Position numbers and translations under genes: made by a program. Below are positions 1-5,053 of a stretch of DNA of 24,135 nucleotides, piece by piece. A model generated the notes under the pieces. That model saw only the letters and a program-made list of their open reading frames with translations. It was not told the origin of the DNA and did no database searches. This DNA comes from a virus. The stretch covers positions 1 to 24,135 of the IMG/VR virus record IMGVR_UViG_3300045051_000983; one strand, written 5' to 3'. The stretch's first letter is position 1. Each line of letters opens with the position of its first letter.

Positions 1-269
1 TTCAAATCTGAGTTTCTGATTTTCAAGATATAGCTGAGTTGGAATTGGTAAGGGCTGCGTTCCGTCCGTCTGGGTTCTGGCTTGATGGTACCGTACTTTA
101 CGTGGTTCCTTACCGTATCAGGGTGAACTCCAATAATTTTGGCAGTGGTCTCAAGGTCGATCGTTCTTTCCTCGAATCGAGAAAAAACGATGTTTTCCAT
201 TTCAGGAAGGTTAAGGGCCTCTATTGCTCCTTCCCTTGCCGCTTCTTTAACAATTGCTTCGAAGTCCAT
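1..269 (-). CDS. HTH DNA-binding protein, excisionase-like (3' end outside window)
   Basis: The complement reads from ATG at 269 without a stop for 89 codons and leaves the window. An acidic N-terminal helix is followed by TTAKIIGVHPDTVRNHVKYG, which has the shape of a MerR/excisionase-type winged HTH (helix, turn GVHP, recognition helix TVRNHVK, then the wing GTIKPEPR). Small HTH proteins of this kind are common in Bacteroidota phages and integrative elements as excisionases or early regulators. It is the last visible gene of the leftward early operon, and its start overlaps the preceding 32-codon ORF by 23 nt, which suggests coupled translation. Which role it has (Xis or regulator) cannot be told from this fragment. 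Confidence 0.7.
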   Translation of the reverse strand, partial: MDFEAIVKEAAREGAIEALNLPEMENIVFSRFEERTIDLETTAKIIGVHPDTVRNHVKYGTIKPEPRRTERSPYQFQLSYILKIRNSDL

Positions 270-345
270 TTTCTAACAGTTTTTCGAGTTTTTCAATTAT
301 CGAATCCATCAGGTCTACTACTACTTGTAAATCCCTATTTTCCAT
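247..345 (-). CDS. Small 32-residue ORF in early operon
   Basis: ATG at 345, stop TAA at 247-249. It encodes a short, acidic/leucine-rich helical peptide (core VVDLMDSIIEKLEKLLENG). It overlaps the end of the LuxR-type gene by 11 nt and the start of the HTH gene by 23 nt, filling the only gap in a chain of overlapping genes. It may be a real small protein or only a translational bridge that carries ribosomes to the HTH start. I do not recognise a family. Confidence 0.4.
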   Translation of the reverse strand: MENRDLQVVVDLMDSIIEKLEKLLENGLRSNC

Positions 346-640
346 TGTGAATACATGATTGGATAGTCCCAGAAAGCTTTCTGAGTAATTCAATGAAATC
401 AATACCGGAGTAGGTTATTAACAGAATGGCGATCATAGCAATAACAATCACTTTTTCTGTCTTCAGGAACCAGACCACAAGGTCTATCTCATCCTTAGAA
501 TTGGTTTTTTTGATCATGTTTTGGAAGTGGGTTTTAATGGTTAATTCCGACCTGAAGGTTTTGTCCGCGATTTGCTTTCTTGAAAGCCCGGACACTCTCA
601 TTTCGATGATTTCCTTTTCAGTGTTACTCAGTAATTCCAT
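335..640 (-). CDS. LuxR-type HTH protein with a transmembrane helix
   Basis: 101 residues from ATG 640, which shares one base with the upstream TGA (TGATG). A GTG at 643 is an alternative start. Residues about 4-60 form a LuxR/GerE-type HTH: LSNTEKEIIEMRVSGLSRKQ is the family's opening, followed by a recognition helix around ELTIKTHFQNMIKK. Residues about 63-82 (VIVIAMIAILLITYSGIDF) are strongly hydrophobic and predicted to span the membrane. The protein has no receiver or sensor domain, so it looks like a minimal membrane-tethered transcription factor. Its place in the early operon suggests control of early or late phage transcription. That role is inference. Confidence 0.75.
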   Translation of the reverse strand: MELLSNTEKEIIEMRVSGLSRKQIADKTFRSELTIKTHFQNMIKKTNSKDEIDLVVWFLKTEKVIVIAMIAILLITYSGIDFIELLRKLSGTIQSCIHNGK

Positions 641-867
641 CACGCTACTTTTTCACCGGTGAAAGCATCAAAGCCGTATTTCCGCATGATGTGCGAAACC
701 ATAACTTCTTCCTTTTCAGTGAGGCATCTGGTACCGTTTTTCTTCATCGAGAATAGTTGCGACCAGTTCCAACCACAAGCCTTCATTATTTCGTCTTTTA
801 CCTCCTGTTGGATGTTTCCGGGAAGGTTCCCGAATGCTAACCCGAATGTTTTTACTTCTTTACTCAT
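640..867 (-). CDS. Small early protein, possible Cro-like regulator
   Basis: 75 residues, first gene of the leftward early operon and divergent from the S24 repressor. Its sequence is helical, with a central Trp-Asn-Trp segment, MKKNGTR and a conserved-looking tail YGFDAFTGE. Small proteins of similar pattern sit opposite repressors in other Bacteroidota mobile elements. A Cro-like role is inferred from position only, as I see no unambiguous HTH. Its stop overlaps the start of the LuxR-type gene. Confidence 0.6.
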   Translation of the reverse strand: MSKEVKTFGLAFGNLPGNIQQEVKDEIMKACGWNWSQLFSMKKNGTRCLTEKEEVMVSHIMRKYGFDAFTGEKVA

Positions 868-1076
868 ATTTAAGTATTGTTTATGTTGTTAACTGTTCTT
901 ACTTTTGATGCTTAACCAAGTCCGGGTCGGGTAATTAATTTACCCGCTCCGGTTTGCTTGCTTTAACCACTCAATAGTGGTCTTAAGTCGTGGTGGACGG
1001 TGACCATTATTCGACTGGTTAAAGCTTTGGTTATTCAAGTTTCGACTTGTAACGCCTCATTGTTTAGCAGAACGAT
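868..1076 (-). promoter_or_regulatory. Hairpin-rich 5' leader of the early operon
   Basis: About 209 nt separate the predicted transcription start (near 1076) from the first early ATG at 867. No credible gene lies here. Perfect inverted repeats occur at 928-946 (CGGGTAA, 5-nt loop, TTACCCG), 966-981 (ACCACT, CAAT loop, AGTGGT) and 1036-1049 (CAAGT, TTCG loop, ACTTG). None is followed by a T run on the minus strand, so they are not obvious terminators. They could be leader RNA structure or extra operator sites. Confidence 0.45.
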
Positions 1077-1080
1077 GATA

Positions 1081-1113
1081 CAAATATAAACAAACATTTC
1101 AGTTTTTTACAAA
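1081..1113 (-). promoter_or_regulatory. Bacteroidota-type promoter for the leftward early operon
   Basis: On the minus strand the -33 element TTTG (1113-1110) is followed by 21 nt and then TATATTTG (1088-1081). This matches the known Bacteroidota sigma consensus TTTG / N19-21 / TAnnTTTG exactly. The transcription start should lie near 1076. The repressor-side direct repeats cover the whole -33 to -7 interval, so repressor binding would block this promoter. Confidence 0.75.
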
Positions 1114-1122
1114 CATTTCAGT
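1090..1122. promoter_or_regulatory. Candidate operators: two 14-bp direct repeats
   Basis: ACAAACATTTCAGT occurs at 1090-1103 and again, identically, at 1109-1122. The 19-bp period is nearly two helical turns. Each copy contains the partial dyad AAACATTT. The pair lies between the early promoter's -7 box and the repressor ATG at 1132, so one bound repressor array could both shut the early operon and autoregulate the repressor gene. Confidence 0.65.
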
Positions 1123-1131
1123 ATTTAAATA

Positions 1132-1863
1132 ATGAATCTACCTGAAAATAATTATAGAATTAAGCAAGTTGTTGATTATAAGACAGGAGGAAATGTTTCT
1201 AAATTTGCAGAACTTATAGGCACATCTCAACAGAAGCTTAATAGAGTATTCAAAATAGATACTAGGACTGGCAAATTCCCAACTGTTCCTTCAGATATAA
1301 TATCCAGAATTACTGAATTGTTTGTAGACATTAATCCTTCTTGGTTGTTAACAGGAGAAGGTGAAATGCTTTTATCCGTTAATAAATCTGAATTAAAACC
1401 AAAGGAGTTCAATTCTCATATTGAAGTTAAGGTTGTTACATCAAAGGCTCGTGCCGGTTATTCCGATTCTTATTACTCAGATGAATACCTTGACGACATG
1501 CCAACCGTGCTTATCGAGGCAGATAGGGAATACAAGGGAAAATATCTTGCTTTCGAAGTTGATGGTGATAGCATGGAGCCAGAATACCACCCAGGAGACA
1601 TTGTCATTTGCAGGGAAATAAAACGTGATTTATGGAAGTACAAACTTCATTTCGAAGATTGGGATTTTGTAATTGCTCATGGAACAAAAGGCATAATGTT
1701 GAAGCAAATCACGAACCACAATGTTGAAACAGGTGAAATTATTTGCCATTCAATCAATGGATTTGAGCACACTGATTTTTCCCTAAACCTAAAAGAAGTG
1801 GCCTTCCTTTACAATGTGGTAGAGCATCGAATTTCAGGAAAAAACAAACGTAGATATAGATAA
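1132..1863 (+). CDS. Phage repressor, LexA/CI-like, S24 peptidase family
   Basis: 243 residues. The N-terminal part (about 8-75) is a CI/Cro-type HTH: KFAELIGTSQQKLNRVF is the two-helix core, and INPSWLLTGEGEM is the phrase that typically ends this domain in Bacteroidota repressors. The C-terminal half is a LexA-type S24 domain: Ala108-Gly109 (KARAGY) is the self-cleavage site, Ser147 lies in DGDSMEP, and the general-base Lys191 lies in IMLKQI. It maintains lysogeny by binding operators, and RecA-stimulated self-cleavage would induce the phage. It is divergent from the early operon, and two direct repeats lie immediately upstream. Confidence 0.93.
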   Translation: MNLPENNYRIKQVVDYKTGGNVSKFAELIGTSQQKLNRVFKIDTRTGKFPTVPSDIISRITELFVDINPSWLLTGEGEMLLSVNKSELKPKEFNSHIEVKVVTSKARAGYSDSYYSDEYLDDMPTVLIEADREYKGKYLAFEVDGDSMEPEYHPGDIVICREIKRDLWKYKLHFEDWDFVIAHGTKGIMLKQITNHNVETGEIICHSINGFEHTDFSLNLKEVAFLYNVVEHRISGKNKRRYR

Positions 1864-4012: not shown

Positions 4013-5053
4013 ATGAAAAAAATCCTTCTACCACTTCTCACATCACTATTCCTTCTCTCGCTAAATGCTTGCGGGCAGGAAATAGTAAATCATACAATCG
4101 GAGACCTCACTCCCAAGTACTCGAAAGGGGAAATAGTAAAACACACCTATTACACCCTCTCCTACTCCGAAGAAAACGAACAACCTTATTGGGTATTCTA
4201 TAAGCTGACTCCCGATTTTCTTAACAGCTCAATCGATCGAACTGATGATTTCCGTCCGGATCCATCGGTTTCGTCCGGATCAGCTGCCCTATCTGATTAT
4301 TCAGGATCGGGATACGATCGCGGACATCTTGCACCTGCAGCAGACATGAAGATAAACGACACTTCAATTTCAGAATCTTTTTTCCTTTCAAATATGTCTC
4401 CCCAACTTCCCGGGTTCAATCGTGGGATTTGGAGTAAACTTGAGAGTCTTGTCAGAACTTGGTGTACAAATGAAGATACTATCTACGTAGTCACTGGACC
4501 CGTTTTCAAAAATAATATTGGAACCATCGGAGCTAATCAGGTGACTATTCCTGGTTATTACTACAAAGCCATTCTTGACATTACTGATGAAAGGAAAATG
4601 ATTGCTTTGGTGCTTCCTAATGCTTCAAGCTCGGCGGATCTTTCCTCGTTTGTTATTTCCATTGACAGCCTCGAATCACTCACAGGAATTGATTTCTTCC
4701 CCGGGTTGCCGGACAATATTGAAACTACTCTTGAGAAGAAATCTAATGCTTCTCAATGGACTTGGACGTCCACTGTTTCGTCAACAAATCCGACTACCAA
4801 ATCAGGATCAGTTCAAGAAAAATCGACTGGGTCCACACAATGCCTTGGCACTGCATCGTCTACTGGACAACAATGTAAAAACATGACCACAAATACTAAT
4901 GGCTATTGCCATGTTCACCAAAACCAAGCCCCGGGATATGTGAAGCCAGCATCCACTGGTTATGCTGGCCAGTGCTGTGCAACCACCAAGGCCGGGACAA
5001 GGTGCAAGCGACAGGCATCTGACGGCACAAAATACTGCTGGCAACATCAATAA
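4013..5053 (+). CDS. DNA/RNA non-specific endonuclease, lipoprotein, with two C-terminal Cys/His repeats
   Basis: 346 residues. The type II signal peptide has its lipobox at LNAC20. The beta-beta-alpha-metal nuclease domain spans about 30-235: the DRGH signature is at 102-105 (YDRGHLAPAADMK, catalytic His105), followed by SNMSPQLPGFNRGIW with the metal-binding Asn136 and Glu144. A Ser/Thr-rich linker (about 240-275) leads to two repeats of the form C-x7-GxxC-x(8-9)-YC-xx-H at about 277-302 and 321-345 (CLGT...QQC...GYCHVH and CATTKAGTRC...YCWQH), probably metal-binding. It should act outside the cytoplasm, anchored to a membrane, where it could cut incoming or extracellular nucleic acid. A weak own promoter may exist: TTTG at 3977-3980, 19 nt, TAATCTTA. 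Confidence 0.9.
   Translation: MKKILLPLLTSLFLLSLNACGQEIVNHTIGDLTPKYSKGEIVKHTYYTLSYSEENEQPYWVFYKLTPDFLNSSIDRTDDFRPDPSVSSGSAALSDYSGSGYDRGHLAPAADMKINDTSISESFFLSNMSPQLPGFNRGIWSKLESLVRTWCTNEDTIYVVTGPVFKNNIGTIGANQVTIPGYYYKAILDITDERKMIALVLPNASSSADLSSFVISIDSLESLTGIDFFPGLPDNIETTLEKKSNASQWTWTSTVSSTNPTTKSGSVQEKSTGSTQCLGTASSTGQQCKNMTTNTNGYCHVHQNQAPGYVKPASTGYAGQCCATTKAGTRCKRQASDGTKYCWQHQ

Follow-up and report, generated by a model that had tools for sequence, protein, structure and literature searches.

An apparent three-operator repressor switch, with one predicted operator inside the repressor gene, in a viral sequence carrying a candidate Bacteroidota-type early promoter

The DNA considered here, called the window throughout, is the whole of the IMG/VR virus record IMGVR_UViG_3300045051_000983, 24,135 bases in length and possibly a fragment. 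It encodes a phage repressor and, on the opposite strand, a divergent early operon, and the present work concerns the regulatory switch between them, which appears from its sequence to use three operators, of which two overlie the early promoter and the third is within the repressor gene. The elements of this switch are as follows, numbered from the first base of the window.

1081..1088, minus strand: -7 element TATATTTG of the early promoter, a consensus match; the divergent promoter is enriched in relatives
1110..1113, minus strand: -33 element TTTG, with a spacer of 21 base pairs (bp) to the -7 element
1090..1103, plus strand: predicted operator copy 1 (O1), in the early-promoter spacer; exact repeat, with its register matched in relatives
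1109..1122, plus strand: predicted operator copy 2 (O2), holding the -33 TTTG of the early promoter; exact repeat
1132..1863, plus strand: repressor of 243 amino acids, with an N-terminal helix-turn-helix (HTH) and an S24 peptidase domain; Ala108-Gly109, Ser147 and Lys191
1312..1325, minus strand: predicted intragenic operator copy 3 (O3), inverted, 13/14, lying 30 nucleotides (nt) before the Trp71 codon; matching slot in relatives

The 14-mer ACAAACATTTCAGT stands twice at this locus in identical form, at an offset of 19 bp, and the pair is the sole exact 14-mer direct repeat with a spacing of 14-60 bp in the window. Such a pair arose in 2 of 20,000 dinucleotide shuffles of the region 868-1131, and in 4 of 20,000 for the region 1060-1131. 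The first-pass annotation, made from the letters of the DNA, had described exact repeats at 1090-1103 and 1109-1122 that end 9 bp short of the repressor start, and both descriptions hold, with 9 bases separating the end of O2 (1122) from the ATG (1132). It had also placed the repeats over the -33 box and spacer of a perfect minus-strand Bacteroidota promoter, an overlay which is confirmed: TTTG (1113-1110), a 21-bp spacer and TATATTTG (1088-1081) fit the consensus TTTG/TAnnTTTG perfectly, with TAnnTTTG at -7 and TTTG near -33 as in the Bacteroidota housekeeping (sigma-ABfr) consensus (PMC7366714, PMC2483708; these papers, and those cited below by accession, are represented here by excerpts). 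The window holds one such perfect match where 1.3 are expected by chance, so that the match alone is at chance level and the promoter call rests on the relatives. On the plus strand of the window there is no TTTG-N19-23-TAnnTTTG that might serve the repressor, and a scan for a sigma-70-like plus-strand promoter returned weak matches only, near the shuffle mean.

The window repressor is of the LexA/CI type, combining an HTH with an S24 domain. It matches Pfam PF00717 (E-value 2e-6) and phrog_4 (E 7e-19), and the solved structures closest to its AlphaFold2 (AF2) model are LexA (3k2z) and lambda CI (3bdn/2ho0), at a Foldseek probability of 1.00. An Ala-Gly site and a Ser/Lys pair are in place; in 16 aligned relatives the Ser and Lys are invariant and the Gly is nearly so. 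By their roles in LexA, Ala108-Gly109 is presumably the cleavage site and Ser147/Lys191 the catalytic pair. Between the window and its close S24 relatives (L002, L003, L078, L121 and L124-L130, the L-numbers denoting loci compared with the window), the C-terminal part of the repressor is strongly conserved, while the N-terminal DNA-binding domains diverge widely. To judge from these sequences, the DNA-binding domain and its operators look as if they were exchanged as a module. Related DNA-binding domains are also found on proteins lacking an S24 domain, at L171 (1968-2501) and L174 (1983-2492).

Nine of the 11 close relatives carry a divergent TTG/TTTG-19-21-TAnnTTTG promoter upstream of the repressor, the exceptions being L078, with a one-mismatch -7 box (by eye), and L124, without a -33 element. 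Among 116 non-redundant upstream regions, 46 had the promoter in divergent and 18 in the same orientation. In a second sample, for which the small early protein rather than the repressor served as anchor, the promoter appeared in 13 of 24 loci, four of which belong to the first sample. The site within the spacer varies from phage to phage when inspected by eye, with AAAGGAATCCTTT in L121, ACAACCTTTTTGGTTGT in L128, GCAATGC or its complement in L002 and L125, and GAACAATGTTC common to L078 and L126, two loci with nearly identical recognition helices. The same arrangement as in the window, a 19-bp direct repeat in equal register to the promoter, recurs in L174. In three relatives (L126, L128 and L129) the promoter pair stands apart from the repressor, about 150-250 bp upstream of it. 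A separate plus-strand TTG-21-TACTTTTG promoter candidate was seen by eye in L126, at about 2800-2840; it follows the operators and precedes the repressor by about 80 nt, so that transcription of the L126 repressor may start outside the operator region.

The geometry of the spacer site is retained across these loci, and its sequence follows the protein. Counted from the start of the -7 box, the best dyad (sought at positions 10-60) had its centre at 14-17 in 23 of 46 loci, as against 10 of 64 control promoters. An operator set of 61 loci remained out of 148 once loci with no promoter match and near-duplicates among the promoter segments had been removed. Within it, similarity between operators correlates with similarity between DNA-binding domains (Mantel r 0.244, 0/5000 permutations; partial r 0.236, 0/5000), compared with r 0.138 (31/5000) for a control flank. 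A significant second copy (p<=0.05) accompanies the site in 26 of the 61 loci, about 3 being expected, and the O1-O2 spacings are mostly 19-22, 29-33 or 42-44 bp, that is, two, three or four helical turns, with a Rayleigh p of about 1e-4 for helical phasing among loci that are not fully independent. The chance tests are uncorrected for shared ancestry; the operator swaps described below are conservative for it, and the O1-O2 Rayleigh test is not. On these sequence comparisons, the spacer site as the predicted operator of the neighbouring repressor is well supported.

A further copy of the site lies inside the repressor gene. In the window O3 starts at 1312, with the Trp codon at 1342, and the match becomes 15/16 when one flanking base is included on each side. 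Its recurrence was assessed by a swap test, in which the spacer operator of each locus was sought, at 12/14 or better, in the first 400 nt of its own repressor gene, with operators exchanged between loci as the control; genes shorter than 300 nt were dropped, leaving 60 of the 61 loci. The own operator occurred in the own gene at 27 of the 60 loci, where 1.86 were expected (0/20,000 permutations), and stricter thresholds gave 15 against 0.2 at 13/14 and 5 against 0.0 at 14/14. The test was replicated on previously unused loci, from prophages in Bacteroidota genomes and named phages, 27 of 120 being kept by equal criteria: 8 of the 27 were positive against 1.42 expected (1/20,000 permutations), with 3 against 0.12 at 13/14, and among the eight is a Porphyromonas phage (L316) with a 14/14 copy. 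When 1200 bp on each side of the -7 box were considered, matches clustered at the promoter and at +150 to +300 (29 against 0.85), and the remaining bins outside the first 100 bp around the -7 box totalled 12 against about 7.5. A scan of the upstream region of 87 loci with 18-mers likewise gave own-gene copies for O1 (29 against 1.33) and O2 (up to 17 against 2.07), with 0-5 against 0.8-2.4 for segments away from both.

The intragenic copy is tied to a particular place in the gene. Its start falls 27-43 nt before the conserved Trp codon of WLLTGEGEM in 27 of 34 cases and elsewhere in 7. The median distance to the -7 box is 211 bp (quartiles 194-228), the copy stands inverted in 16 cases and direct in 12, and the O1-O3 interval is not phased to the helix (28 loci; Rayleigh p 0.6 at 10.5 bp). 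A promoter-free test of the slot about 30-40 nt before the conserved Trp codon found copies in 67 of 162 loci against 14.8 expected, with 30 against 1.55 at 13/14 or better and 8 against 0.05 at 14/14, whereas eight control slots in the same genes yielded 7-19 against 7-11. Because the slot was picked on the earlier sets, and the slot set includes these, this test estimates extent and is not independent; the new-locus replicate is the cleaner of the two. In this slot test, with its looser threshold, 12/14 is reached by L121 and by L114, which is the same phage as L002. The three sites of Bacteroides phage BF1-TP2 (L312) are near-perfect palindromes and were recognized by eye as ATGCAATTGCAT, ATGCTTTTGCAT and, within the repressor gene, ATGCTATTGCAT. 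Leeuwenhoekiella phage Arctus_1 (L315) has an exact 13-bp inverted pair, at 1243-1255 just before its S24 repressor gene and at 1443-1455 inside it. The locus L174 still has 19-bp direct-repeat operators and an intragenic copy on a protein without an S24 domain, and the three-site layout is thus independent of self-cleavage. Outside the Bacteroidota-type set, 45 non-redundant S24 loci (the named ones mostly from Firmicutes) gave no own-gene copy at >=13/14, 0.48 being expected; in a like-for-like test, the Bacteroidota-type set gave 25 of 87 against 2.45.

The sites, their positions, their recurrence and their tracking of the DNA-binding domain are read from sequence, and from them binding, promoter use, repression and a roadblock are inferred. 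It is probable, on this basis, that O1 and O2 are operators of the window's own repressor which silence the early promoter, and that O3 is a third operator, most likely for negative autoregulation. Repressor dimers on O1 and O2 would cover the spacer and the -33 element, and the masked promoter would exclude RNA polymerase, keeping the lytic genes silent. O3 falls outside this mask because it is about 200 bp away; the repressor bound there may stop RNA polymerase as it moves through the repressor gene, and so cap the repressor level. Induction would presumably proceed through self-cleavage of the repressor. For the wider proposal, that Bacteroidota temperate phages share a three-operator switch whose own-operator copy, at a fixed codon slot before the WLLTGEGEM Trp, co-evolves with the DNA-binding domain and blocks transcription of the repressor gene from within, the chances seem evenly balanced.

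This arrangement modifies what the first-pass annotation had envisaged, namely a single operator pair which represses the early genes and also autoregulates the repressor. Its first part survives as predicted operators over the early promoter, in view of the conserved geometry, the sequence that tracks the DNA-binding domain and the LexA/CI-type gene, but a "single pair" is incomplete, a third copy, which the annotation did not mention, being present in the gene and at the matching slot in many relatives. Its second part drew on repeats that do adjoin the ATG in the window, but the adjacency is not conserved (as seen in L126, L128 and L129), and a convincing plus-strand promoter is lacking in the window. 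O3, as a predicted site, is a better candidate for autoregulation than the repeats abutting the repressor start.

Several observations weigh against the proposed switch. Taken alone, the O3 of the window is only moderately unlikely, as synonymous shuffles of the gene reproduced it in 15 of 5000 cases for the 16-mer and in 111 of 5000 for the 14-mer. Intragenic copies were present in 7 of 13 loci at p<0.02 in a first look, which left L002, L078, L121, L126, L130 and L248 (6/13) without one, and O3 was undetectable in 33 of the 60 loci of the first set and in 19 of the 27 new ones. The window repeats are much less symmetric than the sites of most relatives: for the spacer dyad the window ranks among the lowest 9% of loci, and by eye 5 of 8 pairs match about centre 1096.5; asymmetric operators are known from other phages (PMC1934351). 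Neither the exact operator pair in viral contigs nor the 14-mer in 256 loci was found beyond the window itself, so that no second phage with the same operator lends direct support. Moreover, L171, whose DNA-binding domain is the closest (48%), has no comparable repeat.

The alternatives differ in how much of the proposed switch they would leave in place. All three sites may be real operators with O3 acting through a DNA loop to O1 and O2 that strengthens repression, and this, the chief alternative, is rather unlikely as the role of O3. Lambda-type S24 repressors can bridge dimers that lie far apart, lambda CI linking OR and OL, and O3 keeps a fairly constant distance to the -7 box, around its median of 211 bp; candidate copies stand 222 bp (L128) and 262 bp (L126) from the -7 box despite the more distant gene start in these loci. 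The O1-O3 interval is, however, unphased, in contrast to O1-O2, and the position of O3 is bound more tightly to the gene, as the 27 of 34 copies before the Trp codon indicate. A roadblock is favoured over a loop because O3 is fixed in the gene, indifferent to orientation and unphased.

It is improbable that the repeats bind another protein (the LuxR-type, the excisionase-like or the 75-amino-acid early protein described below), and not, or not only, the repressor. The divergent early operon does encode three HTH-type proteins, and the repressor's operators are sites that a Cro-like protein should also bind, but the operator sequence follows the DNA-binding domain of the repressor and the same site appears again inside the repressor gene. 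A small early protein, besides, stands beside some repressors only (6 related among 201 divergent open reading frames at 128 loci, a search in which the window's own went undetected). Least credible by far is that the repeats are a chance AT-rich duplication in the promoter with no regulator. Each copy has a TTTG on the minus strand, and part of their likeness could therefore be promoter-like sequence, and one such promoter match is expected by chance; against this stand the rarity of such a pair among 20,000 shuffles, the different sequences that relatives carry at matching places, and own-gene copies many-fold above the swaps.

The operon that this switch would control, and its leader, comprise the following.

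868..1074, minus strand: leader of 207 nt, from the early promoter to the first early gene; RNA strongly structured
640..867, minus strand: first early gene, 75 amino acids, a candidate Cro-like second regulator (hhalign 89.5%; AF2 predicted local distance difference test score 93)
335..643, minus strand: second early gene, LuxR-type HTH (GerE; Pfam PF00196)
3..269, minus strand: third early gene, excisionase/MerR-like HTH, a weak match (phrog_66, E 7e-4); runs off the window

The 75-amino-acid protein is distantly related, by the hhalign probability listed, to small early proteins encoded beside other repressors. Sequence searches with it matched no known domain, and its AF2 model, itself confident, bears only a weak likeness to HTH/XRE proteins (Foldseek E about 1, Z at most about 6), so that a Cro-like role is no more than possible. 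One relative proposed from a short match, L257, looks like a tail-gene region and the match was judged unrelated, L257-L259 being left out of the sample. The leader folds at -61.5 kcal/mol (z -6.3), with none of 200 shuffles as stable. No Rfam family matched it at gathering score, and the sub-threshold Rfam matches, to eukaryotic families, were taken as chance. Searches with the leader RNA gave no match in phages, and of 395 genomes 10 matched it over short stretches only, with a best E of 0.001; its counterpart in L002, L003 and L078 is only about 75-90 nt long. On the other side of the switch, downstream of the repressor, a DNA/RNA non-specific endonuclease gene (PF01223, E 1e-53) occupies positions 4013-5053 of the plus strand.

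There is precedent, taken singly, for phage repressors that use multiple operators, for operators lacking symmetry and for a regulator that has an intragenic site. Searches of an open-access library, subscription papers being outside its scope, found no report of their combination, an operator copy kept at a single codon slot in the CI-like repressor genes of many Bacteroidota phages and prophages. The annotation's remark that few operator sites are defined for Bacteroidota phages agrees with these searches, which yielded no operator paper and no defined operator for such phages. Lysogeny is common in gut and environmental Bacteroidota. The present comparisons provide, from sequence alone, predicted operators for dozens of their phages, each paired with its DNA-binding domain, and these pairs could be used in Bacteroides as orthogonal repressor parts. 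The intragenic operator could be removed by synonymous codons, whereby the choice between roadblock and looping becomes a simple reporter question.

The predicted switch resembles that of lambda CI and Cro in its divergent repressor and early genes, in the several operators predicted over the early promoter for an HTH and S24 repressor, and in the small, possibly HTH-like protein encoded first in the early operon. It differs in the Bacteroidota -33/-7 promoter, in two promoter operators set at two, three or four helical turns and in the further operator predicted within the repressor gene at a fixed codon slot; the kinship of the 75-amino-acid protein to Cro is, moreover, not seen by sequence. 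Within Bacteroides itself, RepC of the Hankyphage is likewise a CI-like master repressor of a temperate phage, there shown genetically, and differs from the window switch in that the excerpt describes no defined operator for it (PMC12135933). A parallel for the intragenic site is the restriction-modification controller C.Kpn2I, an HTH regulator which likewise represses a divergent promoter by masking its upstream element, and which also binds within its coding region, where it was demonstrated to block elongating RNA polymerase (PMC6237814). The repressors considered here belong instead to temperate phages, most with an S24 domain, and the roadblock demonstrated for C.Kpn2I is inferred for them; family searches of the window proteins (two overlapping sets of 10) detected no restriction or methylation gene, those matched being phage genes. 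Short operators of low symmetry in several copies also characterize mycobacteriophages L1/L5, Bacillus subtilis phage phi105 and P1 (PMC1934351), whose repressors are of other families; the operators of L5 are distributed genome-wide, whereas those predicted here are clustered at the early promoter and in the repressor gene.
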